Source: Sipunculus nudus (Eukaryota > Annelida > Sipuncula > Golfingiida > Sipunculidae). Taken from it: 64,000 nt of DNA. Below are positions 1,941 to 38,616 of this stretch, piece by piece. Every line of letters starts with the position of its first letter. The stretch's first letter is position 1. The stretch is from positions 27,321,214 through 27,385,213 of the forward strand of contig CM049320.1 of NCBI GenBank assembly GCA_026874595.1. Direction: 5' to 3'. The notes under the pieces are model-generated. The model was not told the DNA's origin and did no database searches. It was given only the letters and a program-made list of their open reading frames with translations. The position numbers and the translations under genes were made by a program.

Positions 1941-2429
1941 AAACACACGCAGTAGGCGATGTGTTACCCTGAATCGGGGCCTAAGGCCTCACATGTCATG
2001 AAACGACCGACCAACCAAAATAGAGTTCTAAACTTCGATCTGCGGAAACGACCGCGGTTTGTGACGCGGCTGCATGTTTGTTTCTAAGCATGCAGTGCAA
2101 GAAGTGGACAAAAAAGTTAAAGATAAGGTTTTTCGATTTGTTAAATGTTAAGGAATGTTAAGGCGTTTTTCAATGCCGAAACAAAATACATGTATATACA
2201 CATTTATTGGCTCACATTGGCGAATCCTTACTCTTAGGTGTAGTACTGGGCTTAAAAAAAAATTTAACTGCAACGATGGAACGGACCATTATAATATCGC
2301 CCCCGATCGCTGTCAGTCTCTGTGATTGTTTGAACATTTGATCAAAATCTGTGTCAAAGTCTTCAAACAAATGGTACGTTTTAAACTGTTGTCAAAAGCA
2401 AACCCATCTACTGATTAAGTTGTTAACTA

Positions 2430-3325
2430 TTAGTGGTGGGAGTCGGTTCCTTTTTCATAATCGATCATCGGTTTGAGCAAACCGACTTATGATCGATTAT
2501 TAACCGGTTAAGACAAATATTTGCAATTATCAAATAAATATGCAATTATCTGTGAAACTGTACCTACGTTTCCCCGGCAGATATTCCCCTCTCGCGCATG
2601 AGTGTAACGATCCTTCCACGTATAAAGACTAATTTTAAGGATCAAATTTAACGATCGGCAACGTCGGGTAATGTCTTTCATAATTGAATTTAAGAGCATC
2701 TATGAATGTTAGGACAATAAAGGGGCTGTTTTTCTAGCACATGAAGGCAGATTTTACGGGCCCTGGTGCGCTTGGGGCAGATCATAGATCATCATACCAA
2801 CAAAAAAATTGCAGACTAGTCCAGAAAAAAATTCCAGCTGATTTCCAAATATTCGATTAGCCGGGTTATCCCCAACAAAGAAATTTTTAAGGACTTCCTA
2901 CACAGTGGCACCGGGCATCAGTTGAATAGATTATTTCTAAGAGAATCTCGCAAAATTGGCATAGACCTGGAGAATTATGGAGTATTTTAACGCCTTCCCG
3001 TCCACATTTTGCAAAGTACATTTCGTTAGAAAACTCTCCGTTAATTCTGCAGCTCCCAGCGAGTTCACAGATAAAAAGTTTAATAAGTCCTGCGTTCTTC
3101 ATCTACCGTGTCATACTTAGTTAAATACGGAAGTTATCTGGGAACACAGACTCATTATATGAAGCGCGAATGTGGTAAAAAATGGAAGAATCATTTTTGC
3201 CTATAACATAAAGGCATTCTGGAAAGGAAACAATCATTATTATGATGTAATCGATAGCTGCCTTTAGTAATAAAGCGCTTGAAAGTGGCAGCAAACCGAC
3301 TGACTTTCGATAAAACTCGATGATC
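2430..3325. other. Segment private to duplication copy A, possible insertion
   Basis: Homology to copy B stops near 2425 and resumes near 3330 at CACCTACCG. The intervening 0.9 kb has a hairpin at about 2457-2500 (arms ATAATCGATCAT and ATGATCGATTAT). Related pieces in opposite orientation, with AAACCGACT and CGATGATCGG, lie near its right end, compatible with a degraded inverted-repeat insertion. No gene is recognisable. Confidence 0.4.
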
Positions 3326-3366
3326 GGCCCACCTACCGAAAAATAATGATATCTAACAGTTTCGCA

Positions 3367-3369
<3 letters not shown>

Positions 3370-3413
<44 letters not shown>
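3370..3413. repeat. (TA)n microsatellite
   Basis: Pure TA dinucleotide run of about 44 bp. A shorter TA run occupies the matching place in copy B (near 29793). Confidence 0.95.
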
Positions 3414-3417
<4 letters not shown>

Positions 3418-4200
3418 TAGTCACCTAGTCCATAAAAAAAATAGATAATAATCTCAATTTGCTGAATTCATAATCGCTAAATTCAATACAAGTATGTATA
3501 ATCAAATGCCATGTATTTGATTATGCAGCCAAGTACACAGTGATTTCATTGTCTATTCTGGCGTGGAAAATACCCTTATTGATAATTTTGATTATTTATT
3601 ATCCAGTATGAGTGCAGTTCTAAAATGTAACTTTTTGTTTAGTCACAGACTCACATGGCACTTTTATTGCCATGTGAAATAATTGTATCCATCACTCTTA
3701 TCAAGTATATACGTCTGTTGCCCTTTTATTTCTTACATGTTGTGTTTTTTACCGTAACTATTTATGTGACCCACCCAGACCCTCCTTTATTTTCTTATAT
3801 TTTGTGTCCGCCCAGGAAAATCGACTCGAACACGGAGTGCCAGCCGTTACCCTCGAGTGGCGTCTTGGAAAGGAGAGATAAAAATGGTCTGCTTAGTGGC
3901 GCGAACAGGAACGGAACACCACCGAGGGTTGTCCGGTCCACGACGACAGCGGTCCGGTCCTGGTTCAATCGTACAGGAGGCAATCGGTACTGAGGATCGA
4001 TCTTTCCAAGGGATCCGACCAGTTCATTCAATAATGAAATAAAATTAATTATTTCGAATAAAATTAACTTAAAACCCTCCCCTATGTAGGTCCTGAAAAT
4101 TAAGTGAGAAATGAACGTCAGAACCAGCTTGAAAATCTTGCTAACTAAAAAACATAATCACATTGTAAAGGGTTAAGTTCGAAATGTTTATTCTTTTGTA

Positions 4201-6960: not shown

Positions 6961-9084
6961 CACGTTTCCAATATATATCTAATAAGTAAAAAGTGTAAAT
7001 AATAAGATATTATGTTTTCATTATATTTTAATTCTAAACCAAAGTCTACTATTCTAATTATTGATATATTTAATTTTAAGTATATAAATAATTTTCTCTG
7101 AATAAAGGAGGATAGTAACATTGGCTACCCCCCCCTCCCCCCTTGTTAAATGTTGAGATATAAACCCCCTTACATCCTCCCCCCCCCCCCCCCCCCATTC
7201 CCCTTGCGGAAATCCAACAATATCATTTTTTTGACAAATTTGTTCTGGGACTTTAGGTTTGCCCTTAGAGGAGGCCAATCACCTATCTTACCTTTATGAT
7301 CTAAAGGTAATCCTTGGAGCTTTTAAAAAAAAGAAGTGGCCAGAAAACGTGGATATCACCGCACACAGGCTGCTTGTTTTTATTTTTATATCGACGTGTT
7401 CATAATATTTTGGGGCCCGCCAAAAATCAAACAAACTCAATAAGGGCATCTGGTAGCAAGTCAGATGAGCCAGAGCTTTGCAAATGGTGTTTTGCGGCAA
7501 GTGACCTTTAAGCCTCCGCATAGATGCAATCTACCACCTTAGGTTAGGGAAATAACACCGGGATCAGAATATGTTGGAATACTATGGTCAGAAAATGCAG
7601 AAAATATGACGGGACCGCAACATGACATGCATTAATAATTTTGGGTTTTCAGCGAGACGACAGCTTATCATAAATTTGCATATTCACGTTTGTTGATAGA
7701 TCCATGTGGTCACACTTTATATCGTTCTGGTCAAATGTGCGTTTTAATCTGAAAAAAAAAATCTTTTTTTTCCTTGGAAGGAGCAATGTAGTTGGTAACG
7801 CACTAAGCCCGGTTCGAGTGTGTTATCGTAAAGGCAGCCTTCATTGGTTTGGCTGCTAATTGGCGCAAGGTGACATTGTTAATAGGATTATTGGTCAATG
7901 TACATGTTTATGCTCGCAGCTGGTGTGATATTTACCCAGGTTATGAAATGCGTGTTGAAGTTTCATGTACAGCACCACTCACAAACGCAAAGGAGCCCTT
8001 TCCTTCCGCAAGGGGGGGGGGGGGGGACTTTGACCTTTGACTTTGAAAAAAAATACACACCAAAAATATGCCTTGGTAATGGGATACTAGTATGCTTATT
8101 TACCCCGCTCCCCGACCCATTTTCTCAATGCAATGTTATTTTTATAAAGTAATCAGTGGTAGAAAAAGAAGCAATCCGGGGTGGGGGATTTTCAAAGAGT
8201 GCGAATGTCGAGAGCGTTTAACACCGGAGGACTCGCAGGCACCTGTCGTATCAACCGAGTCTAACTGGAGTACAGATGCCATGGACCACTGCTCCTCCAC
8301 TAATCTCTATTATAATTACAGGGAGGGTCAGTGGTCCGCGGCATCTATACTCCCGTAAAAGCTCAAGTTGATACGGCATGTGCCTGTGAGAGGACTGGGT
8401 GTATGGTGGAAAAATTTAAAAATATATATATATGTCGGGACTGTAGAATAACTCGTGCAGCTCCCTGAGACAACAATCTTGTGAACAGAAAACGTTAATT
8501 GACAACCCTGATATGTGCCGGATTTTAAACTCAGTACACAAGTGTTCTACTGCACATACTGTATTTCCAATCAAACGTGAACTATTCTAGACCCTCGGTA
8601 TCAGACACACCTACAAAACTGGTCGCTGATTGGCTACAGAATGTGTAGCGAATAGTTGAGCATAACGTAACCCCGCTTATTGAGCACGCTCAAGACCAAG
8701 GTACCTCTACAGCCTACTCCGATGGGGGTCGGCCCTACGGATCGACCTGGAATGGTTGACCTGGAGTTAACGGACGACCGTACGAAGAGTGATCGCTAAA
8801 GCTCAGATAACTTACAGTCATCTGAGCTAAAAGCGCATGGATGGATATAGGATCTAGAAAACAAGTGGCGCGGGAGGTTGTTCATTTCTCTACACGCGAG
8901 ATCTCGTCCAAGAAGGGGATAGACCTCTTGCCAGTCAATGTATACAAGGCACTATTTTTCAGTCGAACACAAGCTATATCGCCTGGCAATTAAAATTACA
9001 ATAGTTAAGGCACTAGAGCAAATGAAGAACATACATTAACAAAATTCATTTCAAATATAATAGTTATAAAGAATATGATTGTCT
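6961..9084. other. Intergenic sequence with homopolymer tracts
   Basis: The stretch has C-runs near 7127-7197 and a G-run near 8011-8026. No coding region with recognisable domains, RNA gene or transposon terminus could be supported. Short frames here start at TTG/GTG or cross the homopolymers. Confidence 0.5.
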
Positions 9085-9129
9085 ACGGAAGCGTATTGCT
9101 GCCACCTGGTAAAAGAAAAATAAATTATT

Positions 9130-9255
9130 TATCTCGTACGTACGACATAGTATCTCGTACGCACGACATAGTATCTCGTACGCACGACATACTATCTCGT
9201 ACCCACGACATATCATCTCGTACGAACGACATACTATCTCGTACGTGCGACATAA
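9130..9255. repeat. 21-bp palindromic minisatellite, left arm
   Basis: Six tandem units of the form TATCTCGTACGTACGACATA with substitutions in the central TACGTACG. The perfect unit is itself a 12-bp palindrome. Confidence 0.9.
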
Positions 9256-10644
9256 AAAATCTCACGGATTTGATTCATAGACTAAATAACATGCCAATAG
9301 ATATATGTATAAGCAATATCTATATTTTAAATAATGTATGTTTTCACATTATCTGTATATATATACACAACATATCCAACTCCTTGCAAACAGCAAGACC
9401 ACCATTGAAAACAACACACACAATCACATATCTATTTATTTATAGTATATATTTAAATGCTATTCGATTCACATTTTTGTGTGTGTGCAGGTTTCTGTAA
9501 TATTTCAAGCAAGCGAAATATACATCAATTCGTTGTCTGACAATCATATAAAGAACTCATTTTACGACTGGTGATTAAATAATGTTAGCAGTATATGATG
9601 TTATAACAGTGAGCCTGTCATAATGTTAATAAGAACAAAATCTTGCCTTTGCCAAACTGAAACTACTTTTTTTAGAAAGAAGAGTTCGGACAAGAGGTAC
9701 AGCTCCCAAATAGCCTGATTTTAAGTAACTGAGAATGATATATTTGTACGACATGTTTCTAATATTTCTAAGAACTAGATTTATACATAACACATCGTGT
9801 AGTTGACCTGTTAAACTATTTAATGCATATACAGCCATTGATATGATTGTTGGGTAGCTGAATAGAAAACGATCCATTTAATGGGGTACGTATAATTTTT
9901 ATTTTGAACTAAATTATAAAAAAAATATATTAAAAACTATTACTCATGGGCGTGCGATAAATCTGTGACAGAAGAATACGAAATTAAAAAATAAGTCTTA
10001 ACCGCATATGTCAGGCTGTAGTGTTGGTAAAATCTACACCTCAGATTTGTCGAATTTGCGGAGTGGTATAAGATCATGTATGTGGTACATGTACGTGTAA
10101 CTCTCCCTTTTGTAAACGACATGAAGTTCAACTTATTGGATCAAGCACTTCGTTTAATTAAACATGAATCATGAACCTCTCCTAATGGGCATCTCTGTAT
10201 TACAGAACCTCTATAAGTGTCTGTTAAGTGTATACATAAGAAGGCCCGGTGACCAGAGGAAAGATCTTGGTCGCGCACTTGCGACAATTATAAAAAATAA
10301 AAGAAACATAAAAGAAGAAACACCTAGAAAAGCTTGAAAACCCTTGAATTGTGAATTTATGCTGTACCACCACCAGGTGGCGTGAGCGCTGTGTTTGTCT
10401 CGTTCCTAAATGATTGGTCTCGTTTCTAAATTTTATTTCCATTTCAAATTTGCCATATTAGCATAGGAATTCCCCACAAGTAATAATAACTAATTGCGTC
10501 CATTGCACATGTCTGGATATTTTATCTGGTCAAAAAAGAACGTCTGATAGACATTACATGTATTACTAATGACATTCATAGTATCCACCGGCTGAGCCAT
10601 TCTAAAACAGCGCTGGTATTATATCCCAAGGCTTTCAGTCTTTT

Positions 10645-10692
10645 CACACAAACACACACACACACATCCTCACACACACACACACATAAACG

Positions 10693-10757
<65 letters not shown>
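10645..10757. repeat. Compound (CA)n(TA)n(GA)n microsatellite
   Basis: Consecutive CA, TA and GA dinucleotide runs in the spacer between the arms of the foldback element. Confidence 0.95.
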
Positions 10758-10759
<2 letters not shown>

Positions 10760-11840
10760 GATTGTATTGTAAAGAGTTTAAATGAAAAAAAGGACCTATT
10801 TACATTTTACAAACCAAGTATTTTTAGTATACATGAAGTACAATTTAGTCTCCTTAAACTATTACGGGATCTTTCAATATTTCGTTCTTCGTTTGCTTTC
10901 TTCTCTTTACAAGTGGAACAAAAACAAATCAAGGTTTTTCAAGCTTTTCTGGGTGATTTTCTTTCATGTTTCTTCTCTTTTTTATAATTGTCGCGTGTGC
11001 TAAACTAAGATCTTGCTTCTGATCAAACTGTGTTTACTCACGCACAGAACTATAATAACGGATACAAAAGCGGTAAACAGGAGATATTAAGCCCGTGTAT
11101 CGGCATGGATTTGCTGAACAACTTTTGTATTCAGCCAAATTGAGTTAATAACGTGAGACAAAACATATATTATTACAAAAGGATATGAACCTTGAGTGTC
11201 AATATAGAGGTGTCTGTAATACAGAGATGCCCGTAAGGAGAGGTTCCTGATTCATATATTATGAAACGAAGTGCTTGATCCCATCAGTTGAACTTCGTGC
11301 CGTTTACGGTAGGGCGAGTGACACTGTGCGTTATGTCATAAATCTAGTTCTTATACAGATCAATTTTGGAATATAAGAAACCTACCCCACATATATCCAT
11401 TCTCCATTACTTACAATCAGGCTATTTGTTTGCTGTACCTCTTGTCCGAACCCTTCCTTCACCAAAAGGTAGTTTCAATTTGGCAAAGGCAATAATTTTT
11501 TCTTATTAATATTACACTGCTAACAGAATTAAATTACCTATTTAAAAATGAAAGTTCTGTATATGACTGACAGACAACGATTTGATAAATTTCTTTTCCT
11601 TGAAATATTTCCGAAACCTAAACACAAAGAAGCAACAAAAAATCAATAGCATTTTAATTTGTAGTATAAATAATTAAATAAATAAATGCATTAATAAACA
11701 TATGTATTTTTTTTTCTTTTCAAAGGTGTTCCGAAGGTTTGCAAGGTGAAGATGTTGTGTAGTTAGGGTAACATATATATAATGCTTATACATATATCAG
11801 TTGGCCTGTTGTGTATTCTGTGATTCAGATGCGGAAGATT

Positions 11841-11947
11841 AACTATGTCGTACTTACGAGATACTATGTCGTTCGTACGAGATACTATGTCGTACGTACG
11901 AGATAGTATGTCGTACGTACGAGATAGTATGTCGTACGTAGGAGATA
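11841..11947. repeat. 21-bp palindromic minisatellite, right arm (inverted)
   Basis: Five units, reverse complement of the array at 9130-9255, each with a TCGTACGTACGA-like core. They lie at the mirror position in the opposite arm. Confidence 0.9.
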
Positions 11948-12280
11948 TATAATTTATTTTTCTTTTATCAGGTGGCAGCAATACGCTTCCGTAATTGTCT
12001 GTTTGTTTTTTTTGTAAAACTCGGGGAACTGAATTGCGGCGCGATATCGGTGACGTGGAAGTTTTAACACATAAAACAATAGCACGTGGCACACGGTTTA
12101 AGCATGTGTTTGGTGAATGGGCGCGATTCTGGGAATACAGGTGACCTCCAGGTGCATGTGCTCAGCCATGGTTGTATACGACAGTGGATGCGCAAGCAAT
12201 CCAGGTCAAACCCGCTGTAGTTCCGTGTCGTGTGCACAGCCCCCTGCAGGGACCTATCATTGTCTCAATAAACCTTGATC

Positions 12281-14689: not shown

Positions 14690-15030
14690 CAAGGTGTTTC
14701 CATGTGCGCGTATATGCGTGAAAAATCGCTCAAAAGATTTTGTAACTGGGGCGTTTCCATGTGTCCGTCAGCGTATAAGCGTAACTGTGTATATGCTCGA
14801 AAATCGCCACAGGAGCGATTTTCACGCATAGGGTCTGGGTGAACTCGGGAATTCGGGGTAAAATTACGTCACTTCAGCACTCTTTGTGGAAGGCCTGCTG
14901 GATCCACTGTACAAATATATTAGTCTGCAAGTTCACGCATACACGCATATACGAGCACATGGAAAAACACCCATTTTTTCATGCATATACGCACATGTAT
15001 ATACATATAAACGCGCACATGGAAACATAC
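14690..15030. repeat. Cluster of short inverted motifs (CATGTGCGCGTATATGCGTG type)
   Basis: Variants of this motif occur in both orientations near 14697, 14752, 14931 and 14978, and once in copy A near 843. A small hairpin with 8-bp arms (AAAATCGC / GCGATTTT) is near 14801-14823. Together they form the left flank of segmental duplication copy B. Confidence 0.5.
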
Positions 15031-15462
15031 TTTTATTTCTTTAGTTTCACTGATATCTAAAACAATGCCATAATCTCACCTGTATGTGTGGTTCTATATG
15101 CGCCTTGAACTGTGGAGTCTATCATAGTATAAAACACCACTGTGTCACGGTCATGTGTAGGCCTGGAACATAATGCTGGTACCCATGTTTTGAGTATGCA
15201 GTGTCTTACTTGTAAAAAACGGAGTGTTCAGTGATTCAAAAGCTGGGACGTTATCAGTACTAAATCTACATATTATGTCTTCTTAATTTATATTACACAA
15301 ACGTTGTCTATAACGCAAATTGTAAATATAACAATAAAGTATTTTGTGGTCAAAGCAATCGAAAATATTTAGAGGAAGGTCATGTGCCTGTGTAATGAAA
15401 TGCTCGCCAGTTCAGCGCGACTGGGAGTGGTGGATTTCTGATTGGAATGGTCCGAGCCGTAA

Positions 15463-15464
<2 letters not shown>

Positions 15465-15520
<56 letters not shown>
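15465..15520. repeat. (TA)n microsatellite
   Basis: Pure TA run of about 56 bp immediately before the inverted-repeat block. Two short open frames read through it and are artefacts. Confidence 0.95.
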
Positions 15521-15521
<1 letters not shown>

Positions 15522-15705
15522 GATCGGATGGGACGTCGTGAGGTTAGTGCAAGATCCGAGAACCGGATTCTGGGCGTTCTCAGACCTCCCTCCATTTACC
15601 TCCGTTTATTCTAGTAGGCCTACCCGCTTGCTGGGCGGCTTATAAATACGAGAAATAAGCATAACAGTTATCATTTACTGTTTATTATGTAACACATGAC
15701 AAATC

Positions 15706-18145
15706 ATGATTAATAAACAATGTTATAACCATAATATGGCAAAAAATATTATATTACACGTAGCAGATCAGGCACAACCAGATAATTTGGTCTTTAAAAA
15801 TATATATTTATTTAAAATCGCATGCAGACTTCGTACCTCTCCAGAGATTTCACCAGGATTTACCTGATGAGTATAGCTACAGAATGATATAGAATGATAT
15901 CCCTCAGTGTCGACCAACCCGTAGGGCATGAGGCACAGCCTGATAATTTGCTCAATATATTAAAAAACATATTTCTAATCATATGCACACTTGGAAGAAA
16001 AGCCTGAAAATTTGCTCGATATATTAATATATAATTATATACACACTTTTAATTATATACACACTTTGAAAAAAAAGATGTTTAAGTTTAAACAAAATGT
16101 ACCTCTCCAGGGTTTTCACCAGGATTTAGCTGAATACGTGAAATAAGCATAAGAGTTATTATTAACTGTTTATTATGTAACACATGACAAATCATGATTA
16201 ATAAACAATGTTATTACCATAATATGGCAAAAAATATTATATTACACATAGCAGATCAGGCAAAACCAGATAATTTGGTCTTGAAAATATATATTTATTT
16301 AAAATCGCATGCAGACTTCGTACCTCTCCAGAGATTTCACCAGGATTTACCAGATGAGTATAGCTACAGAATGATATAGAATGATATCCCTCAGTGTCGA
16401 CCAACCCGTAGGGCATGAGGCACAGCCTGATAATTTGCTCAATATATTAAAAAACATATTTCTAATCATATGCACACTTGGAAGAAAAGCCTGAAAATTT
16501 GCTCGATATATTAATATATAATTATATACACACTTTTAATTATATACACACTTTGAAAAAAAAAGATGTCTCAGTTTAAACAAAATGTACCTCTCCAGGG
16601 TTTTCACCAGGATTTAGCTGAATACGTGAAATAAGCATAAGAGTTATTATTAACTGTTTATTATGTAACACATGACAAATCATGATTAATAAACAATGTT
16701 ATTACCATAATATGGCAAAAATTATTATATTACACATAGCAGGTCAGGCAAAACCAGATAATTTGGTCTTTAAAATATATATTTATTTAAAATCGCATGC
16801 AGACTTCGTACCTCTCCAGAGATTTCACCAGGATTTACCTGATGAGTATAGCTACAGAATGATATAGAATGATATCCCTCAGTGTCGACCAACCCGTAGG
16901 GCATGAGGCACAGCCTGATAATTTGCTCAATATATTAAAAAACTTATTTCTAATCATATGCACACTTGGAAGAAAAGCCTGAAAATTTGCTCGATATATT
17001 AATATATAATTATATACACACTTTTAATTATATACACACTTTGAAAAAAAAAGATGTCTCAGTTTAAACAAAATGTACCTCTCCAGGGTTTTCACCAGGA
17101 TTTAGCTGAATACGTGAAATAAGCATAAGAGTTATTATTAACTGTTTATTATGTAACACATGACAAATCATGATTAATAAACAATGTTATTACCATAATA
17201 TGGCAAAAAATATTATATTACACATAGCAGATCAGGCAAAACCAGATAATTTGGTCTTTAAAATATATATTTATTTAAAATCGCATGCAGACTTCGTACC
17301 TCTCCAGAGATTTCACCAGGATTTACCAGATGAGTATAGCTACAGAATGATATAGAATGATATCCCTCAGTGTCGACCAACCCGTAGGGCATGAGGCACA
17401 GCCTGATAATTTGCTCAATATATTAAAAAACATATTTCTAATCATATGCACACTTGGAAGAAAAGCCTGAAAATTTGCTCGATATATTAATATATAATTA
17501 TATACACACTTTTAATTATATACACACTTTGAAAAAAAAGATGTCTCAGTTGAAACAAAATGTACCTCTCCAGGGTTTTCACCAGGATTTAGCTGAATAC
17601 GTGAAATAAGCATAAGAGTTATTATTAACTGTTTATTATGTAACACATGACAAATCATGATTAATAAACAATGTTATTACCATAATATGGCAAAAAATAT
17701 TATATTACACATAGCAGATCAGGCAAAACCAGATAATTTGGTCTTTAAAATATATATTTATTTAAAATCGCATGCAGACTTCGTACCTCTCCAGAGATTT
17801 CACCAGGATTTACCAGATGAGTAAAGCTACAGAATGATATAGAATGATATCCCTCAGTGTCGACCAACCCGTAGGGCATGAGGCACAGCCTGATAATTTG
17901 CTCAATATATTAAAAAACTTATTTCTAATCATATGCACACTTGGAAGAAAAGCCTGAAAATTTGCTCGATATATTAATATATAATTATATACACACTTTT
18001 AATTATATACACACTTTGAAAAAAAAAGATGTCTCAGTTTAAACAAAATGTACCTCTCCAGGGTTTTCACCAGGATTTAGCTGAATACGTGAAATAAGCA
18101 TAAGAGTTATTATTAACTGTTTATTATGTATCACATGACAAATCT
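15706..18145. repeat. 488-bp tandem repeat, five units
   Basis: The anchor ATGATTAATAAACAATGTTA recurs at about 15706, 16194, 16682, 17170, 17658 and 18145 (TTGATTAATAAACAATG at the last), a period of 488 bp. Each unit joins a copy of the inner part of the left inverted repeat (CATAAGAGTTATTATTAACT onward) to diverged satellite-like segments with CGTACCTCTCCAGAGATTTC. Units differ at only a few positions, so amplification is recent. The 61-codon frame in each unit is a by-product. Confidence 0.9.
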
Positions 18146-18259
18146 TGATTAATAAACAATGTTATTACCATAATATGGCAAAAAATATTATATTACACAT
18201 AGCAGATCAGGCAAAACCAGATAATTTGGTCTTTAAAATATATATTTATTTAAAATCGC

Positions 18260-21200
18260 ATGCAGACTTTGTACCTGTCCAGAGATTTCACCAGGATTTA
18301 GCCAATGAGTATAGCTACAGAACGAGGCGTCCCTTAGTCTCAACCATCCCGTAGGGGACCAGCCAAAGCCTGATATTTTGCTTACTATATCAATATATAT
18401 ATATTTCAAATAATATGCACAATTTGAAAAAAATATCTCACTTGAAACAAAATGTACCTCTCCGGAGTTTTCACAAGGATTTACCTGAGGAGTATAGCTA
18501 CAGAACCAGGCGTCCCTTAGTCTAAACCATTCCGTAGGGGACCATCCAGAGCCTGATATTTTGCTCACTATATCAATATATATATATTTCAAATAATATG
18601 CACAATTTGAAAAAAATATCTCACTTGAAACAAAATGTACCTCTCCGGAGTTTTCACAAGGATTTACCTTTTGAGTATAGCTACAGAACGAGGCGTCCCT
18701 TAGTCTCAACCATCCCGTAGGGGACCAGCCAAAGCCTGATATTTTGCTTACTATATCAATATATATATATTTCAAATAATATGCACAATTTGAAAAAAAT
18801 ATCTCACTTGAAACAAAATGTACCTCTCCGGAGTTTTCACAAGGATTTACCTGAGGAGTATAGCTACAGAACCAGGCGTCCCTTAGTCTAAACCATTCCG
18901 TAGGGGACCATCCAGAGCCTGATATTTTGCTCACTATATCAATATATATATATATATCTAAAATAATATGCACAATTTGAAAAAAAAAATTCTCACTTAA
19001 AACAAAATGTACCTCTCCGGAGTTTTCACAAGGATTTACCTTTTGAGTATAGCTACAGAACGAGGCGTCCCTTAGTCTCAACCATCCCGTGGGGGACCAG
19101 ACAAAGCCTGATATTTTGCTCACTATATCAATATATATATATTTCAAATAATATGCACAATTTGAAAAAAATATCTCACTTGAAACAAAATGTACCTCTC
19201 CGGAGTTTCCACAAGGATTTACCTGAGGAGTATAGCTACAGAACCAGGCGTCCCTTAGTCTAAACCATTCCGTAGGGGACCATCCAGAGCCTGATATTTT
19301 GCTCACTATATCAATATATATATATATATCTAAAATAATATGCACAATTTGAAAAAAAAAATTCTCACTTAAAACAAAATGTACCTCTCCGGAGTTTTCA
19401 CAAGGATTTACCTTTTGAGTATAGCTACAGAACGAGGCGTCCCTTAGTCTCAACCATCCCGTGGGGGACCAGACAAAGCCTGATATTTTGCTCACTATAT
19501 CAATATATATATATTTCAAATAATATGCACAATTTGAAAAAAATATCTCACTTGAAACAAAATGTACCTCTCCGGAGTTTTCACAAGGATTTACCTGAGG
19601 AGTATAGCTACAGAACGAGGCGTCCCTTAGTCTCAACCATCCCGTAGGGGACCAGCCAAAGCCTTTTATTTTGCTCACTATATCAATATATATATTTCAA
19701 ATAATATGCACAATTTGAAAAAAATATCTCACTTGAAACAAAATGTACCTCTCCGGAGTTTTCACAAGGATTTACCTGATGAGTGTAGCTACAGAACGAG
19801 GCGTCCCTTAGTCTCAACCATCCCGTGAGGGACCAGCTAAAGCCTTTTATTTTGCTCACTATATCAATATATATATTTCAAATAATATGCACAATTTGAA
19901 AAAAATATCTCACTTGAAACAAAATGTACCTCTCCGGAGTTTTCACAAGGATTTACCTGATGAGTATAGCTACAGAACGAGGCGTCCCTTAGTCTCAACC
20001 ATCCCGTGAGGGACCAGCTAAAGCCTTTTATTTTGCTCACTATATCAATATATATATTTCAAATAATATGCACAATTTGAAAAAAATATCTCACTTGAAA
20101 CAAAATGTACCTCTCCGGAGTTTTCACAAGGATTTACCTGATGAGTATAGCTACAGAACGAGGCGTCCCTTAGTCTCAACCATCCCGTGAGGGACCAGCC
20201 AAAGCCTTTTATTTTGCTCACTATATCAATATATATATTTCAAATAATATGCACAATTTGAAAAAAATATCTCACTTGAAACAAAATGTACCTCTCCGGA
20301 GTTTTCACAAGAATTTACCTGATGAGTATAGCTACAGAACGAGGCGTCCCTTAGTCTCAACCATCCCGTGAGGGACCAGCTAAAGCCTTTTATTTTGCTC
20401 ACTATATCAATATATATATTTCAAATAATATGCACAATTTGAAAAAAATATCTCACTTGAAACAAAATGTACCTCTCCGGAGTTTTCACAAGGATTTACC
20501 TGATGAGTATAGCTACAGAACGAGGCGTCCCTTCGTCTCAACCATCCCGTGAGGGACCAGCTAAAGCCTTTTATTTTGCTCACTATATCAATAAATATAT
20601 TTCAAATAATATGCACAATTTGAAAAAAATATCTCACTTGAAACAAAATGTACCTCTCCGGAGTTTTCACAAGGATTTACCTGATGAGTATAGCTACAGA
20701 ACGAGGCGTCCCTTAGTCTCAACCATCCCGTGAGGGACCAGCCAAAGCCTTTTATTTTGCTCACTATATCAATATATATATATTTCAAATAATATGCACA
20801 ATTTGAAAAAAATATCTCACTTGAAACAAAATGTACCTCTCCGGAGTTTTCACAAGGATTTACCTTTTGAGTATAGCTACAGAACGAGGCGTCCCTTAGT
20901 CTCAACCATCCCGTGGGGGACCAGACAAAGCCTGATATTTTGCTCACTATATCAATATATATATATTTCAAATAATATGCACAATTTGAAAAAAAATATC
21001 TCACTTGAAACAAAATGTACCTCTCCGGAGTTTTCACAAGGATTTACCTGAGGAGTATAGCTACAGAACCAGGCGTCCCTTAGTCTAAACCATTCCGTAG
21101 GGGACCATCCAGAGCCTGATATTTTGCTCACTATATCAATATATATATATATATCTAAAATAATATGCACAATTTGAAAAAAAAAATTCTCACTTAAAAC

Positions 21201-24200
21201 AAAATGTACCTCTCCGGAGTTTTCACAAGGATTTACCTTTTGAGTATAGCTACAGAACGAGGCGTCCCTTAGTCTCAACCATCCCGTGGGGGACCAGACA
21301 AAGCCTGATATTTTGCTCACTATATCAATATATATATATTTCAAATAATATGCACAATTTGAAAAAAATATCTCACTTGAAACAAAATGTACCTCTCCGG
21401 AGTTTTCACAAGGATTTACCTGAGGAGTATAGCTACAGAACGAGGCGTCCCTTAGTCTCAACCATCCCGTAGGGGACCAGCCAAAGCCTTTTATTTTGCT
21501 CACTATATCAATATATATATTTCAAATAATATGCACAATTTGAAAAAAATATCTCACTTGAAACAAAATGTACCTCTCCGGAGTTTTCACAAGGATTTAC
21601 CTGATGAGTGTAGCTACAGAACGAGGCGTCCCTTAGTCTCAACCATCCCGTGAGGGACCAGCTAAAGCCTTTTATTTTGCTCACTATATCAATATATATA
21701 TTTCAAATAATATGCACAATTTGAAAAAAATATCTCACTTGAAACAAAATGTACCTCTCCGGAGTTTTCACAAGGATTTACCTGATGAGTATAGCTACAG
21801 AACGAGGCGTCCCTTAGTCTCAACCATCCCGTGAGGGACCAGCTAAAGCCTTTTATTTTGCTCACTATATCAATATATATATTTCAAATAATATGCACAA
21901 TTTGAAAAAAATATCTCACTTGAAACAAAATGTACCTCTCCGGAGTTTTCACAAGGATTTACCTGATGAGTATAGCTACAGAACGAGGCGTCCCTTAGTC
22001 TCAACCATCCCGTGAGGGACCAGCTAAAGCCTTTTATTTTGCTCACTATATCAATATATATATTTCAAATAATATGCACAATTTGAAAAAAATATCTCAC
22101 TTGAAACAAAATGTACCTCTCCGGAGTTTTCACAAGGATTTACCTGATGAGTATAGCTACAGAACGAGGCGTCCCTTAGTCTCAACCATCCCGTGAGGGA
22201 CCAGCCAAAGCCTTTTATTTTGCTCACTATATCAATATATATATTTCAAATAATATGCACAATTTGAAAAAAATATCTCACTTGAAACAAAATGTACCTC
22301 TCCGGAGTTTTCACAAGGATTTACCTTATGAGTATAGCTACAGAACAAGGCGTCCCTTAGTCTCAACCATCCCGTAGGGGACCAGCCAAAGCCTTTGATT
22401 TTGCTCACTATATCAATATATATATTTCAAATAATATGCACAATTTGAAAAAAAAATATCTCACTTGAAACGAAATGTACCTCTCCGGAGTTTTCACAAG
22501 GATTTACCTGAGGAGTATAGCTACAGAACGAGGCGTCCCTTAGTCTCAACCATCCCGTGAGGGACCAGCCAAAGCCTTTTATTTTGCTCACTATATCAAT
22601 ATATATATTTCAAATAATATGCACAATTTGAAAAAAAATATCTCACTTGAAACAAAATGTACCTCTCCGGAGTTTTCACAAGGATTTACCTTATGAGTAT
22701 AGCTACAGAACCAGGCGTCCCTTAGTCTCAACCATCCCGTGAGGGACCAGCTAAAGCCTTTTATTTTGCTCACTATATCAATATATATATTTCAAATAAT
22801 ATGCACAATTTGAAAAAAAATATCTCACTTGAAACAAAATGTACCTCTCCGGAGTTTTCACAAGGATTTACCTGATGAGTATAGCTACAGAACGAGGCGT
22901 CCCTTAGTCTCAACCATCCCGTGAGGGACCAGCCAAAGCCTTTTATTTTGCTCACTATATCAATATATATATTTCAAATAATATGCACAATTTGAAAAAA
23001 AATATCTCACTTGAAACAAAATGTACCTCTCCGGAGTTTTCACAAGGATTTACCTGATGAGTATAGCTACAGAACGAGGCGTCCCTTAGTCTCAACCATC
23101 CCGTGGGGGACCAGACAAAGCCTGATATTTTGCTCACTATATCAATATATATATATTTCAAATAATATGCACAATTTGAAAAAAATATCTCACTTGAAAC
23201 AAAATGTACCTCTCCGGAGTTTTCACAAGGATTTACCTGAGGAGTATAGCTACAGAACGAGGCGTCCCTTAGTCTCAACCATCCCGTAGGGGACCAGCCA
23301 AAGCCTTTTATTTTGCTCACTATATCAATATATATATTTCAAATAATATGCACAATTTGAAAAAAATATCTCACTTGAAACAAAATGTACCTCTCCGGAG
23401 TTTTCACAAGGATTTACCTGATGAGTGTAGCTACAGAACGAGGCGTCCCTTAGTCTCAACCATCCCGTGAGGGACCAGCTAAAGCCTTTTATTTTGCTCA
23501 CTATATCAATATATATATTTCAAATAATATGCACAATTTGAAAAAAATATCTCACTTGAAACAAAATGTACCTCTCCGGAGTTTTCACAAGGATTTACCT
23601 GATGAGTATAGCTACAGAACGAGGCGTCCCTTAGTCTCAACCATCCCGTGAGGGACCAGCTAAAGCCTTTTATTTTGCTCACTATATCAATATATATATT
23701 TCAAATAATATGCACAATTTGAAAAAAATATCTCACTTGAAACAAAATGTACCTCTCCGGAGTTTTCACAAGGATTTACCTGATGAGTATAGCTACAGAA
23801 CGAGGCGTCCCTTAGTCTCAACCATCCCGTGAGGGACCAGCTAAAGCCTTTTATTTTGCTCACTATATCAATATATATATTTCAAATAATATGCACAATT
23901 TGAAAAAAATATCTCACTTGAAACAAAATGTACCTCTCCGGAGTTTTCACAAGGATTTACCTGATGAGTATAGCTACAGAACGAGGCGTCCCTTAGTCTC
24001 AACCATCCCGTGAGGGACCAGCCAAAGCCTTTTATTTTGCTCACTATATCAATATATATATTTCAAATAATATGCACAATTTGAAAAAAATATCTCACTT
24101 GAAACAAAATGTACCTCTCCGGAGTTTTCACAAGGATTTACCTTATGAGTATAGCTACAGAACAAGGCGTCCCTTAGTCTCAACCATCCCGTAGGGGACC

Positions 24201-27200
24201 AGCCAAAGCCTTTGATTTTGCTCACTATATCAATATATATATTTCAAATAATATGCACAATTTGAAAAAAAAATATCTCACTTGAAACGAAATGTACCTC
24301 TCCGGAGTTTTCACAAGGATTTACCTGAGGAGTATAGCTACAGAACGAGGCGTCCCTTAGTCTCAACCATCCCGTGAGGGACCAGCCAAAGCCTTTTATT
24401 TTGCTCACTATATCAATATATATATTTCAAATAATATGCACAATTTGAAAAAAAATATCTCACTTGAAACAAAATGTACCTCTCCGGAGTTTTCACAAGG
24501 ATTTACCTTATGAGTATAGCTACAGAACGAGGCGTCCCTTAGTCTCAACCATCCCGTGAGGGACCAGCTAAAGCCTTTTATTTTGCTCACTATATCAATA
24601 TATATATTTCAAATAATATGCACAATTTGAAAAAAAATATCTCACTTGAAACAAAATGTACCTCTCCGGAGTTTTCACAAGGATTTACCTGATGAGTATA
24701 GCTACAGAACGAGGCGTCCCTTAGTCTCAACCATCCCGTGAGGGACCAGCCAAAGCCTTTTATTTTGCTCACTATATCAATATATATATTTCAAATAATA
24801 TGCACAATTTGAAAAAAATATCTCACTTGAAACAAAATGTACCTCTCCGGAGTTTTCACAAGGATTTACCTGGTCAGTATAGCTGCAGAACAAGGCGTCC
24901 CTTAGTCTCAACCATCCCGTGAGGGACCAGCCAAAGCCTTTTATTTTGCTCACTATATCAATATATATATTTCAAATAATATGCACAATTTAAAAAAAAA
25001 TATCTCACTTGAAACAAAATGTACCTCTCCGGAGTTTTCACAAGGATTAACCTGGTCAGTATAGCTGCAGAACGAGGCGTCCCTTAGTCTCAACCATCCC
25101 GTGAGGGACCAGCCAAAGCCTTTTATTTTGCTCACTATATCAATATATATATTTCAAATAATATGCACAATTTGAAAAAAAATATCTCACTTGAAACGAA
25201 ATGTACCTCTCCGGAGTTTTCACAAGGATTTACCTGATGAGTATAGCTACAGAACGAGGCGTCCCTTAGTCTCAACCATCCCGTGAGGGACCAGCCAAAG
25301 CCTTTTATTTTGCTCACTATATCAATATATATATTTCAAATAATATGCACAATTTGAAAAAAATATCTCACTTGAAACAAAATGTACCTCTCCGGAGTTT
25401 TCACAAGAATTTACCTGATGAGTATAGCTACAGAACGAGGCGTCCCTTAGTCTCAACCATCCCGTGAGGGACCAGCTAAAGCCTTTTATTTTGCTCACTA
25501 TATCAATATATATATTTCAAATAATATGCACAATTTGAAAAAAATATCTCACTTGAAACAAAATGTACCTCTCCGGAGTTTTCACAAGGATTTACCTGAT
25601 GAGTATAGCTACAGAACGAGGCGTCCCTTAGTCTCAACCATCCCGTGAGGGACCAGCTAAAGCCTTTTATTTTGCTCACTATATCAATATATATATTTCA
25701 AATAATATGCACAATTTGAAAAAAAATATCTCACTTGAAACAAAATGTACCTCTCCGGAGTTTTCACAAGGATTTACCTGATGAGTATAGCTACAGAACG
25801 AGGCGTCCCTTAGTCTCAACCATCCCGTGAGGGACCAGCCAAAGCCTTTTATTTTGCTCACTATATCAATATATATATTTCAAATAATATGCACAATTTG
25901 AAAAAAATATCTCACTTGAAACAAAATGTACCTCTCCGGAGTTTTCACAAGGATTTACCTTATGAGTATAGCTACAGAACAAGGCGTCCCTTAGTCTCAA
26001 CCATCCCGTAGGGGACCAGCCAAAGCCTTTGATTTTGCTCACTATATCAATATATATATTTCAAATAATATGCACAATTTGAAAAAAAAATATCTCACTT
26101 GAAACGAAATGTACCTCTCCGGAGTTTTCACAAGGATTTACCTTATGAGTATAGCTACAGAACGAGGCGTCCCTTAGTCTCAACCATCCCGTGAGGGACC
26201 AGCCAAAGCCTTTTATTTTGCTCACTATATCAATATATATATTTCAAATAATATGCACAATTTGAAAAAAAATATCTCACTTGAAACAAAATGTACCTCT
26301 CCGGAGTTTTCACAAGGATTTACCTTATGAGTATAGCTACAGAACGAGGCGTCCCTTAGTCTCAACCATCCCGTGAGGGACCAGCTAAAGCCTTTTATTT
26401 TGCTCACTATATCAATATATATATTTCAAATAATATGCACAATTTGAAAAAAAATATCTCACTTGAAACAAAATGTACCTCTCCGGAGTTTTCACAAGGA
26501 TTTACCTGATGAGTATAGCTACAGAACGAGGCGTCCCTTAGTCTCAACCATCCCGTGAGGGACCAGCCAAAGCCTTTTATTTTGCTCACTATATCAATAT
26601 ATATATTTCAAATAATATGCACAATTTGAAAAAAATATCTCACTTGAAACAAAATGTACCTCTCCGGAGTTTTCACAAGGATTTACCTGGTTAGTATAGC
26701 TGCAGAACAAGGCGTCCCTTAGTCTCAACCATCCCGTGAGGGACCAGCCAAAGCCTTTTATTTTGCTCACTATATCAATATATATATTTCAAATAATATG
26801 CACAATTTGAAAAAAAATATCTCACTTGAAACAAAATGTACCTCTCCGGAGTTTTCACAAGGATTTACCTGGTCAGTATAGCTGCAGAACGAGGCGTCCC
26901 TTAGTCTCAACCATCCCGTGAGGGACCAGCCAAAGCCTTTTATTTTGCTCACTATATCAATATATATATTTCAAATAATATGCACAATTTGAAAAAAAAT
27001 ATCTCACTTGAAACGAAATGTACCTCTCCGGAGTTTTCACAAGGATTTACCTGATGAGTATAGCTACAGAACGAGGCGTCCCTTAGTCTCAACCATCCCG
27101 TGAGGGACCAGCCAAAGCCTTTTATTTTGCTCACTATATCAATATATATATTTCAAATAATATGCACAATTTGAAAAAAATATCTCACTTGAAACAAAAT

Positions 27201-28500
27201 GTACCTCTCCGGAGTTTTCACAAGGTTTACCTTATGAGTATAGCTACAGAACGAGGCGTCCCTTAGTCTCAACAATCCCGTAGGGGACCAGCCAAAGCCT
27301 GATATTTTGCTCACTATATCAATATATATATTTCAAATAATATGCACAATTTGAAAAAAAATATCTCACTTGAAACAAAATGTACCTCTCCGGAGTTTTC
27401 ACAAGGATTTACCTGGTCAGTATAGCTGCAGAACAAGGCGTCCCTTAGTCTCAACCATCCCGTGAGGGACCAGCCAAAGCCTTTTATTTTGCTCACTATA
27501 TCAATATATATATTTCAAATAATATGCACAATTTGAAAAAAAATATCTCACTTGAAACAAAATGTACCTCTCCGGAGTTTTCACAAGGATTTACCTGATG
27601 AGTATAGCTACAGAACGAGGCGTCCTTTAGTCTCAACCATCCCGTGAGGGACCAGCTAAAGCCTTATATTTTGCTCACTATATCAATATATATATTTCAA
27701 ATAATATGCACAATTTGAAAAAAAAATCTCACTTGAAACGAAATGTACCTCTCCGGAGTTTTCACAAGGATTTACCTGATGAGTATAGCTACAGAACGAG
27801 GCGTCCCTTAGTCTCAACCATCCCGTGAGGGACCAGCCAAAGCCTTTTATTTTGCTCACTATATCAATATATATATTTCAAATAATATGCACAATTTGAA
27901 AAAAATATCTCACTTGAAACAAAATGTACCTCTCCGGAGTTTTCACAAGGATTTACCTGATGAGTATAGCTACAGAACGAGGCGTCCCTTAGTCTCAACC
28001 ATCCCGTGAGGGACCAGCCAAAGCCTGATATTTTGCTCACTATATCAATATATATATTTCAAATAATATGCACAATTTGAAAAAAATATCTCACTTGAAA
28101 CGAAATGTACCTCTCCGGAGTTTTCACAAGGATTTACCTGGTCAGTATAGCTGCAGAACAAGGCGTCTCTTAGTCTCAACAATCCCGTAGGGGACCAGCC
28201 AAAGCCTGATATTTTGCTCACTATATCAATATATATATATTTCAAATAATATGCACAAATTGAAAAAAAAATACCTCACTTGAAACAAAATGTACCTCTC
28301 CGGAGTTTTCACAAGGATTTACCTGGTCAGTATAGCTGCAGAACAAGGCGTCTCTTAGTCTCAACAATCCCGTAGGGACCAGCCAAAGCCTGATATTTTG
28401 CCCACTATATCAATATATATATTTCAAATAATATGCACAATCATGGACAATTTGAAAAAAAAATATCTCACTTGAAACGAAGAGTATACCTCTCCAGAGT
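18260..28500. repeat. About 181-bp satellite array with 10-monomer higher-order repeat
   Basis: About 56 head-to-tail units of 181-183 bp, each with GTACCTCTCCGGAGTTTTCA, GTATAGCTACAGAAC, GCGTCCCTTAGTCTCAACC and TTGCTCACTATATCAATATA. Diagnostic monomer variants recur every 1817 bp, which is ten monomers. The CTTATGAGTATAGCTACAGA plus ACAAGG variant falls at about 22324, 24141 and 25959. A GATGAGTGTAGC variant falls at about 19779, 21602 and 23420. A CAGTATAGCTGCAG variant pair shows the same spacing at 24.9 and 26.7 kb. The left part alternates two monomer classes as 363-bp dimers (18.3-19.5 kb and 20.8-21.4 kb). Both edges decay into diverged units. Some 183-bp stretches leave long reverse-strand frames open, and these are not genes. 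Confidence 0.95.
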
Positions 28501-29602
28501 TTACATCATCCTGTTGTCGAGGAGGTTATCTGCAGAATGGAGTTTAGTTTAATTTCGCCCATCCCGTAGCGGATTAGGCACAACCTGATGATTTTTTTCT
28601 GTTAAAATATATGTTTGTTTAAAATCGCATACAGCCTTTTGTAAAAATATATTGCACTTGAAAAGAAATGTATCTTTCCAGAATTTTCACCCGAATTTAG
28701 CTCATGGGTAGCTACAGAATGCGGCGACCATTCCGAACTTTGTATAGGCTTAACTTCTTAAGCATTATTATAATATAAAATTGTTGCCATAACATCGCAA
28801 TTACATTGTTTATTAATCATGATTTATCATGTGTTACATGATAAAGAATTAACAAATGGTGAATAAACAATTAATTTCCAACCTTGATTAAGTTTTACAT
28901 CAGTGAAAAGTTTTATTATTTATGCCGTTTCATAACCGCTTTACTCTTATGCTTATTAAACGTATTTATAAGCCGCCAAGCAAGCGGATCGGCACACTTG
29001 AATAAACGGAGGTAAATGGAGCGAAATCGAAGAACGCCAGGAATTTGGTTCTCGGTTGTCTTGCACTAACTTCCACGACGTACAAAAAAAAGCAGGAGGC
29101 GGCGTATTACTCTGAACCGGGGCCTAAGGCCCCACATGTACAGGAAACGAACCACTAACCAAAATATAGTTTTATACTTCGTTCGGTTGTACCGACCGCG
29201 GTTTGTGACGCGGCTGTTTTGTTTCTAAGCAAGCAGTGCAAGAAGTGGACAAAAAGTTAAACATAAAGTTTGTCGATTTCTTAAATGTTATGGAATGTTA
29301 AGGAAAGTTTCAATGCCGAAACAAAATATATACTCGTTTATTGCTTCACAGCGGCGAATTCTTGCTCTTAGGTGTATTTCTGGACTTAAAAAAGTTTAAC
29401 TGCAACGAATGAAATGAATCATAATATCGCCCCCGATCGCTTTCAGCCTCTTTATTTGTTTGACCATTTTATCAGAATCGGTGTCAAAGTCTTCAAGCAA
29501 ATGGTATGTTTTATACTGTTTCCAAAAGTATACCCATCTACTGATAAAGTTGTAAGCTAATCTAATATTTTGAACAGAGGTTCATTGAACAGATGGTCAA
29601 TG

Positions 29603-29728
29603 TGATCGTCACATTTACTAAGCTTCGGCCTTTTGAAGTCAGTTCGGCTATTATAAGTCAAAACAAAAGGTCCTTTGCTTTGACTTAGCCGAACTGATTT
29701 CAAAAGGCCGAAGTGTAGTGAATGCGAC
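29603..29728. mobile_element. 126-bp hairpin element, present only in copy B
   Basis: A near-perfect inverted repeat: the left arm contains CTTCGGCCTTTTGAAGTCAG and the right arm its counterpart CTGATTTCAAAAGGCCGAAG, with a short central loop. It is absent from the matching position of copy A, as expected for a foldback MITE inserted after the duplication. Confidence 0.6.
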
Positions 29729-30264
29729 CGCCATGCACCGAAAAAAGTGCCACCTACCGATAAATAATGATATCTAAGAGTTTCTTAGTTTTATATATAT
29801 ATATATTTTTAGTCACCTTGTCCATAAAAATGTAACTATAGTTGGAAATCTTAATTTGCTGAATTCATAATCGTAGAATTCAATACGAGTATGGATAATC
29901 ATAAGACATGTATTTGATTATGCAGCCAAATAAACTGAGTGATTTCATTTTGTATTCTGGCGTAGAGATGACCCTTATTGGTTCATTTGTTATCTGGGAT
30001 TTATGCATTTCTAAAATGTAACTTTTTGTTGTGGTCACAGACTTGGAATCTGTGTGCGCCCCTGAAAATGGGCTCATACACGGAGTACCAGCCGATACCC
30101 GCGGTTGGCGTCTTGGAAAGGTCTTTTAACAAGAAGAGATAAAAATGGATATGCTTAGCGGCGCGAAAAGGACCGGACCACCCTTGGGCAGTCGGGTTCA
30201 CAACGATAGAAGTCCGGTCCTGGTCCGGCCCAATCGGTACTGATGATGAATCTTTCCAAGGGTC

Positions 30265-31456
30265 CGACCAATTAATTCAATAATGATTCAAAATCAATTA
30301 TTGCGAATAAAAATAAATAAATACCCCCCCCCTTTCATAGGTCCTGAAAATATATGTCAGAACCAGCTAGAAAATCTTGCTAACTACAAAACAAAAGCAA
30401 ATTTAAAATGTTAATTCTTGTGTATAAGGCAATAAATAATTTAGCTCTTCTTTACCTGCAAGACCTAATTCACCATTAAACTCCATCAAGAAGCCTGCGG
30501 TCAGCAGCTTAAAACTTACTTATCGCGTCCTTTACGTAATCGTTCTGTGTACAAAATCGGGCATTTAGTGTTGTTGGCCCGAAACTGTGGAATGACCTAC
30601 CAGATACTCTAAGAGAAGCCACCAGTCTCTAAGAATTTAAAAGTTAACTAAAAACATATTTGTTCATGGAACATTTTTATGCCTGGTAATTTTAATACGA
30701 TGTTTTATATGTAAATACCGAAACGTTTGATCATTTAAGTAGAATTTCGATGGTATATATAATTGAAATATTGATTTTTAGATGTTTCATTTAATACTCA
30801 AACCCTCTGAATGTAATATTTCAACCAACTGGACTTTAATTTCATATGCTTATAATAATATGTTTATGTTTGCTGATTGTGTTCTAGTTGTGTAACAGCA
30901 TTTTAGAGCATTAACCATCATGCATTTTACGCTTTACTAGATGAATTATTATTATTATTTTTACATTGTTCAAAACGAGGGATGCAACAAATAGGTGGCG
31001 TGCACGCTATGTTTGTAATTTGTTCCTCAGATCGTGCCAGATGGAAACCTATTTCCACTTTTGTATAGGAGTAAAGAGACGGTTTCAGATGAAATATTGG
31101 GATAATTACCATCATATTTTAAGGAGAAAACACTTGTCTATAACTCTTGTCTATTGCACATACCTTTTAAAAATTGGGACGATTACACACCCAGGGGCGC
31201 AGTAGTTTGGTTAACACCAGGATATAAAATGAGTGGAAGCGTGTGATTTTGCTCTGTCATGGATGCCGAACCAGTAATGGTATTCTGCAGATGTTACTGA
31301 GATGTACATATACACAATTAAGCTAGCATTAAAACTAAACCTCGAATAAAAATATTAATAAATAAATAATATATAGCTCCCATATATTATTGGTCATCAT
31401 TTTTGTCACTGAAAGTTTGTCATTGTAAAGGAAAGGCACCTCAGTCAGTAAAACTG
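30265..31456. repeat. 1.2-kb direct repeat, left copy flanking the LINE
   Basis: It starts CGACCAATTAATTCAATAAT and ends CAGTCAGTAAAACTG. The second copy is 37410-38616. The two are nearly identical, with scattered substitutions and small indels over about 1200 bp. The inserted LINE begins and ends exactly at the repeat borders. Confidence 0.95.
30400..30690 (+). pseudogene. LINE ORF2 C-terminal fragment (CR1/L2-like), left copy
   Basis: Conceptual translation gives pieces typical of the extreme C-terminus of CR1/L2-type LINE reverse transcriptase ORFs: FKMLILVYKAINNLA, TPSRSLRSAA and RAFSVVGPKLWNDLPDTL. In-frame stops and shifts interrupt it. The following sequence up to 31456 is AT-rich and may be its 3' UTR. 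The fragment is repeated at 37545-37830 as part of the flanking direct repeat. Confidence 0.65.
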
Positions 31457-37409: not shown

Positions 37410-38616
37410 CGACCAATTAATTCAATAATGATTCAAAATCAATTATTGCGAATAAAAATAAATAAATACCCCCCCCCCCCTCCTTTCATAGGTCCTGAAA
37501 ATATATGTCAGAACCTGCTAGAAAATCTTCCAGACTACAAAACAGAAGCAAATTTAAAATGTTAATTCTTGTGTATGAGGCAATAAATAATTTAGCTCTT
37601 CTTTACCTGCAAGACCTAATTCACCATTAAACTCCATCAAGAAGCCTGCGGTCAGCAGCTTAAAACTTACTTATCGCGTCCTTTACGTAATCGTTCTGTG
37701 TACAAAATCGGGCATTTAGTGTTGTTGGCCCGAAACTGTGGAATGACCTACCAGATACTCTAAAAGAAGCCACCAGTCTCTCAGAATTTAAAATTTAACT
37801 AAAACATATTTGTTCATGGAACATTTTTATGCCTGGTAATTTTAATACGATGTTTTATATATAATTTTTTTATACCGAATCGTTTGAACATTTAAGTAGA
37901 ATCTCGATAGTATATACAATTGAAAAATATTGATTTTTAGATGTTTCATTTAATACTGAAACCCTCTGAATGTAATATTTTAACCAACTGGACTTTTAAT
38001 TTCATATGCTTATAATAATATGTTTATGATTGCTGATTGTGTTCTAGTTGTGTAACAGCATTTTAGAGCATTAACCATCATGCATTTTACGCTTTACTAG
38101 ATGAATTATTATTATTATTTTTACATTGTTCAAAACGAGGGATGCAACAAATAGGTGGCGTGCGCGCTATGTTTGTAATTTGTTCCTCTGATCGTGCCAG
38201 ATGGAAACCTATTTCCACTTGGGTATAGGAGTAAAGAGACGGTTTCAGATGAAATATTGGGATAATTACCATCATATTTTAAGGAGAAAACACTTGTCTA
38301 TAACTCTTGTCTATTGCACATACCTTTTAAAAATTGGGACGATTACACACCCAGGGGCGCAGTAGTTTGGTTAGCACCAGGATATAAAATGAGTGGAAGC
38401 GTGTGATTTTGCTCTGTCATGGAGGCCGAACCAGTAATGGTATTCTGCAGATGTTACTGAGATGTACATATACACAATTAAGCTAGCATTAAAACTAAAC
38501 CTCGAATGAAAATATTAATAAATAAATAATATATAGCTCCCATATATTATTGGTCATCATTTTTGTCACTGAAAGTTTGTCATTGTAAAGGAAAGACACC
38601 TCAGTCAGTAAAACTG
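37410..38616. repeat. 1.2-kb direct repeat, right copy flanking the LINE
   Basis: Matches 30265-31456 from CGACCAATTAATTCAATAAT to CAGTCAGTAAAACTG, immediately after the (TCAA)n tail of the LINE. It includes a second copy of the CR1/L2-like ORF2 fragment at 37545-37830. Confidence 0.95.

Follow-up and report, generated by a model that had tools for sequence, protein, structure and literature searches.

Several mobile elements are already known to carry tandem repeats. Tetris of Drosophila virilis is described as a non-autonomous foldback element, each arm of which has a terminal flanking domain followed by a variable number of ~220-bp tandem repeats (PMC4079207). Its target-site duplications of 8 to 10 bp were the ground for placing it with Mutator; its arrays reach up to 66 copies, the long ones being more homogeneous than the arrays of complete elements, and expanded arrays inside the element were reported from fibre-FISH (PMC4079207). 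According to the same report, 39 of 69 D. virilis contigs carried repeats alone (PMC4079207). In bivalves, pearl, CvA, DTC84 and Cg_HINE are described as Helentron-associated elements with satellite-like monomers inside them (PMC7492417, PMC8268682, PMC5139131), and element-associated arrays of oyster CgiSat01 comprise as many as 89 monomers (PMC8268682). The literature on Tetris and the oyster Helentrons already contains the general principle that tandem seeds carried by transposons can become satellites. A further case reportedly comes from a Xenopus. This MITE driving a satellite (Scalvenzi and Pollet 2014, as summarized in the review PMC12628747) has an internal tandem array between inverted termini, and this array can grow longer and become a source of satellites; by the review's account, long arrays there lose their recognisable termini by mutation, whereas the arms of the family described here persist around 57 to 73 monomers.

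Tetris is the closest precedent for this family, likened to it by described structure and not by sequence. Unlike in Tetris, the sequence here runs through very long arrays from arm to arm, a perfect target-site duplication accompanies two such copies (C9 and C7), monomers adjoining the arms tend towards one positional type, and one array, that of the element we call W2, is private to a single locus. The bivalve Helentron-associated elements have a similar monomer length and likewise carry their monomers inside a mobile element. Theirs are rolling-circle elements without target-site duplications, whereas ours have 9-bp duplications, terminal inverted arms and, often, mirrored arrays.

We analyzed a window of 64,000 nucleotides from Sipunculus nudus. 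W2 occupies positions 15533 to 29081 of this window (13,549 bp), where inverted arms enclose two tandem arrays. The left terminal arm (15533–15668, plus strand) has the terminus ACGTCGTG and is 83% complementary to the right terminal arm (28891–29081, minus strand), the figure being for 139 aligned bp of 15533–15668 against 28943–29081. Between them lie 5.5 copies of a 488-bp unit (15645–18322, plus strand, 98% matches), 55.8 copies of a 181-bp monomer (18270–28441, plus strand, 96% matches), and degenerate arm-proximal monomers together with the inner right arm (28442–28890, plus strand). These coordinates agree with the preliminary description of this DNA, which had reported about 56 units plus five 488-bp units between inverted arms. 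Each 488-bp unit combines 186 bp of inner left arm with ~1.7 monomers, which indicates that array growth once took in the inner edge of the left arm. Median divergence is 2.8% between neighboring monomers (mean, 4.8%) and only 0.55% between monomers ten positions apart (mean, 3.7%). The higher-order repeat suspected earlier is thus there, with a period of 10 monomers, and the lower divergence at lag 10 than at lag 1 indicates that the array arose in part through duplication of 10-monomer blocks. In the open reading frame (ORF) listing, the long ORFs of W2 fall within the array. The monomer also contains a motif, CTGATGAG, which suggested a hammerhead ribozyme. Rfam gave no gathering-level match in the whole window, and we dropped the idea; at E ≤ 1 over 15400–29300 there were eight matches, all to microRNA models on an AT repeat at 15449–15537.

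A compact paralogue, W1, lies in the same window (886–1940, plus strand, 1,055 bp). It has both arms, 72% alike across 144 bp, and ~2 to 3 degenerate monomers, or 2.3 unit-equivalents. The likeness of the two loci continues past the right arm, which the preliminary description had not noted: 1500–2429 matches 28656–29559 at 82%, and two outer pieces of the right flank, 3329–3651 and 3803–4176, match 29750–30414 at 75%. The whole right flank of W1 (1941–4176, plus strand) is duplicated with gaps in that of W2 (29082–30414, plus strand), and the left flank of W1 (752–882, plus strand) is 77% similar to 14829–14974. Furthermore, a third, broken copy starts 2.7 kb upstream of the window. It has ~200 bp of left flank in common with W2, and 720 bp at 93% plus 2.1 kb at 90% in common with the surroundings of W1; some left-flank stretches are found at all three copies. 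The right arm and ~2.6 kb are missing from this third copy, so at least one large deletion has taken place at this site. Since the flanks held in common lie outside the element, the most plausible reading is that W1, W2 and the third copy arose from one old insertion by local duplication. W1 had been put forward as the progenitor of W2; judged by its flanks, it is a sister copy, produced by duplication of that insertion, and no progenitor.

A search of the 1.43-Gb genome for paired termini, as the preliminary description had proposed, found the arms as facing pairs elsewhere. Each of two arm queries had at least 41 matches, those of the second on at least 15 contigs; 40 candidates were scored per query, which makes these counts lower bounds. 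Fifteen facing pairs were readable at both ends, and we examined them for target-site duplications. Perfect 9-bp duplications flank five of the 15 (C1:53.39, C7:6.58, C8:13.56, C9:48.58 and C14:18.16 Mb). Three pairs on C17 that have flanks in common agree at 8, 7 and 8 of 9 bp, and the other seven (C10, C13 twice, C9:68.6, C16, W1 and W2) at 1 to 5 of 9 bp. As a control, we scored 210 mismatched pairings; the maximum was 7 of 9, reached in two cases. The inverted repeats are terminal and begin at the duplication. Five perfect duplications among 15 pairs argue for a small non-autonomous foldback family, and on these sequence comparisons the element is a copy of it. W1 (4 of 9 bp) and W2 (2 of 9 bp) lack a target-site duplication, so their insertion is visible only through the family. 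The likeness of W1 and W2 past the right arm had also raised the idea of a larger element that includes LINE-like ORFs at 32.9–37.0 kb. We rejected it, since the arms elsewhere are true ends with 9-bp duplications and the common flanks point to local duplication.

Elements of the family range from 1.06 to 16.0 kb. Growth to 13.5 kb had been thought notable, but the largest copy, on C9, is longer, at 16.0 kb, and has a perfect 9-bp duplication. The left array is reversed relative to the right one in C7, C9, C10, C14, C1 and other copies, and in many copies a long inverted repeat extends over both arm and array; in C7 it measures 4.4 kb at 83% with the arrays included. The arms of the C1 copy are 293 bp at 88%. 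The C7 and C1 copies thus have the long terminal inverted repeats, with tandem repeats inside them, of foldback elements. Arrays are one-sided in W1, W2, C17a and C13b; W1 and W2 have kept the arms and do not have the foldback arrangement of tandem repeats.

Mutator (MULE) elements make target-site duplications of about 8 to 11 bp, typically 9 bp, and the size found here is 9 bp. The superfamily is therefore probably Mutator-type, an assignment based on duplication size, as for Tetris. MULE transposases are abundant in the genome (at least 131 matches, from 150 of 252 candidates scored); compared by eye, none of these matches lay less than 100 kb from a listed arm match. The single 607-aa MULE locus that we checked had no significant arm match. 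Two copies of the MULE repeat tested are 98% identical across 6.9 kb, up to the edge of the sequence fetched. Among ORFs of at least 110 aa in nine elements (W2, C9, C13 and C14 not among them), we saw no transposase-like ORF by eye. Visual inspection suggests that ORFs on C8 (816, 376 and 312 aa) and one on C16 (171 aa) are LINE-like; the others are short or lie within repeats. Our Pfam comparison covered the ORFs of the window.

We then compared the monomers across loci. A search that skipped very common words, and that passed over W2's own 181-bp array, returned 164 matches; the part of them listed placed related monomers at 19 places, 18 with an arm and 10 with both. The 19th, C6:73.997 Mb, has no arm in the arm-match lists. 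The earlier idea that a satellite grows inside an inverted-repeat element gains from this, since 18 of the 19 places listed are arm-bearing and small and large forms coexist; what falls away is W1 as the progenitor and the 56-unit array as a genome-wide satellite. A profile search over 24 loci found 355 near-full-length monomers. Monomers of the family are 181 to 184 bp long, and the direction of an array is constant relative to its arm. Counted left/right, monomers at the loci with both arms number C9 44/29, C7 35/21, C14 13/10, C10 9/13, C1b 3/6, C13 1/10, C8 3/2, C9g 3/1, C17b 1/3, C17a 0/3, C16 2/0, C13b 0/1, W1 0/1 and W2 0/57. The other loci have C1 28/0, C15b 10/4, C2 0/10, C9e 0/7, C9f 0/7, C6 5/0, C7b 4/0, C10b 3/0, C12 3/0 and C9d 3/0.

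The order of monomers recurs next to the arms. Type G adjoins the arm in 16 of 27 arrays of at least three monomers, and the second monomer is D or B in 12 of the 16 G-first arrays; further inwards, the longest arrays consist mainly of types A and B. First monomers make up 8.9% of the monomer pool. The nearest monomer at another locus to a first monomer was itself a first monomer in 18 of 25 arrays of at least three monomers, and not in the other 7 (W2 and the duplicate locus C9f were left out). Position and distance to the nearest monomer elsewhere were weakly and positively correlated (Spearman 0.25; 12 arrays of at least eight monomers, W2 excluded). These recurrent arm-proximal types suggest that ordered arrays move with the element and that their inner parts grow later. 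In the longest arrays, the nearest neighbor of a monomer is usually at the same locus (C9, 63/73; C7, 37/56; W2, 56/57). The corresponding counts are 15/28 for C1, 12/22 for C10, 6/23 for C14, 6/14 for C15b, 3/11 for C13 and 3/10 for C2. The largest single-locus clades in the monomer tree hold 12 of 73 monomers for C9, 12 of 56 for C7 and 6 of 28 for C1. Left-right monomer pairs less than 2% apart are absent from six of seven two-sided copies (C7, C9, C14, C15b, C1b and C13); C10 has two such cross-side pairs.

W2 stands apart. A 31-mer from its array, searched with up to 3 mismatches, had 56 matches in the genome, and all 56 were inside the W2 array. W2 monomers differ by a mean of 4.8% among themselves and by 28.6% from others, with a minimum of 18%; the one full monomer of W1 is 22 to 26% away. 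In the tree of monomers from compact and expanded elements, a comparison also suggested in the preliminary description, 56 of the 57 W2 monomers form one clade with a support of 0.99. Only the W2 array is wholly private, and only W2 forms a single clade. The 56-unit array had been taken for a satellite of this genome; a classical satellite is abundant, with long arrays at numerous sites or in heterochromatin, and the W2 type is found in one array. The arms of W2 are 17% apart, and its right arm with the adjoining flank is 18% from the sister locus. Set against the 4.8% within the array, these distances indicate that the W2 array is more uniform than the age of its element would lead one to expect. 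An old element with a younger-looking array suggests growth, or at least complete turnover, long after insertion.

The explanation we prefer, at a probability of roughly three in four, is that the element takes short ordered arrays along when it moves and that these multiply in place afterwards, and that local duplication turned one insertion into three copies. The element would consist of terminal arms, with an array of 181- to 184-bp monomers next to one of them or to both. It would be mobilized whole by a transposase acting in trans, with the 9-bp duplications as the result. After insertion, inner monomers would multiply in place, separately on each side in most of the copies tested, probably via unequal exchange or replication slippage, while arm-adjacent monomers would tend to keep the ancestral type. 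In the window, one insertion would have become three by local duplication, and in one of these copies the array would have reached ~56 units and produced a second repeat that includes part of the left arm.

The strongest competing account reverses the direction of change: W1 would have shrunk from a long ancestral local copy, and the long array would be ancestral, its uniformity maintained by turnover without net growth. Large deletions do occur here, as the ~2.6 kb missing from the third copy along with its right arm attests, and turnover alone would also make an array uniform. The 10-monomer blocks, with their lag-10 median of 0.55%, point instead to recent copying. The 57 W2 monomers average 4.8% apart, against 18% for right arm plus flank, and the 22 to 26% between W1's full monomer and those of W2 also speaks against shrinkage. 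We consider this account unlikely, and infer net growth in W2 in preference to turnover, or to losses from its sisters.

Somewhat less likely still is that the array was already long at transposition, so that big elements move as big elements. The 16.0-kb copy with its perfect duplication would fit, and monomers of mid-sized arrays are often closest to those of other loci (17/23 in C14 and 8/14 in C15b), which is what one would expect had some of the array length moved together with the element. The same-locus neighbors that prevail in C9, C7 and W2 argue against a ready-made array, as does a W2 monomer type found nowhere else.

A Helentron- or HINE-type rolling-circle element of the pearl, CvA, DTC84 or Cg_HINE kind, with a central satellite-like array, is very improbable. 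Oyster HINEs do have monomers of 160 to 180 bp in central tandem arrays (PMC7492417, PMC8268682). Helitrons are described as making no target-site duplications (PMC7492417), whereas five of our 15 arm pairs have perfect ones, and it is on this point that the earlier comparison with pearl and CvA fails; furthermore, the inverted repeats here are terminal and continue through the arrays in C7, C9 and C10. Least probable of all is an assembly artefact, a collapsed or stitched repeat, given contigs of 61 to 111 Mb at the loci studied, distinct flanks on either side, ordered monomer differences along the array and similar structures at many loci.

Growth in place after insertion, our preferred reading, may have a stronger form. 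Every insertion would then plant a short ordered seed array with constant arm-proximal monomers, and each insertion, even each arm, would breed a private satellite from its inner monomers, making the family a satellite nursery. We put this forward tentatively, at somewhat less than even odds, because only the W2 array is wholly private. If it is true, the three local copies amount to a natural experiment that shows one insertion before and after.

What is new here is a private array at a single locus with sister copies of the same insertion, together with monomer types that recur next to the arms and arrays that for the most part grew separately on either side. Satellite origins are usually reconstructed from abundant, old satellites. 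Here the type is confined to one array in one identifiable transposon, beside sister copies and with about two dozen other family loci whose arrays are of very different length. The order of events, from seed array through insertion and in-place growth to separate sides, is testable by unit counts across individuals and related species. W2 looks like satellite DNA born inside a mobile element.

Copies of the arm-bearing foldback-type family elsewhere in the genome differ in what lies between their terminal inverted repeats. At two loci on contig C9, 28.14 Mb (L031) and 27.38 Mb (L032), the types of the tandem monomers follow one another in identical order, and 30 bp of the right flank is identical. 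These loci, 0.75 Mb apart, probably arose by a recent segmental duplication. At L040 (C4, 96.6895 Mb), facing arms (n = 2) are separated by a gap of about 15 to 60 bp without an array between them; this is perhaps a copy that has lost its array.

Within the window, a 1.2-kb direct repeat (96% identity) lies to the right of the expanded element, at 30265-31456 and 37410-38616. The two repeat copies surround LINE-like ORFs in which Pfam analysis of the window ORFs found a reverse transcriptase as well as an endonuclease/exonuclease domain. Positions 4016-4176 resemble the start of the same repeat. A second inverted-repeat element, unrelated to the arm-bearing family, occupies 9080-11995. Its arms start TACGGAAGCGTATTGCTGCCACCTG, and within them a 21-bp unit is repeated in short arrays; ATTGTC on either side of the element is a possible 6-bp duplication. 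Degenerate tandem repeats (65-80% identity) occur at 60788-62290, and directly upstream of the window (C15:27314001-27318154; L009, about 1-4154) local tandem duplications of 68-95% identity are densely nested.

The arm-bearing family is itself probably of Mutator (MULE) type. About 43 of the 131 MULE transposase matches listed genome-wide (e.g., L042 and L048) share an ORF length of 607 aa, and a 6.9-kb comparison of two copies shows 98% identity. This MULE family may have been active recently.
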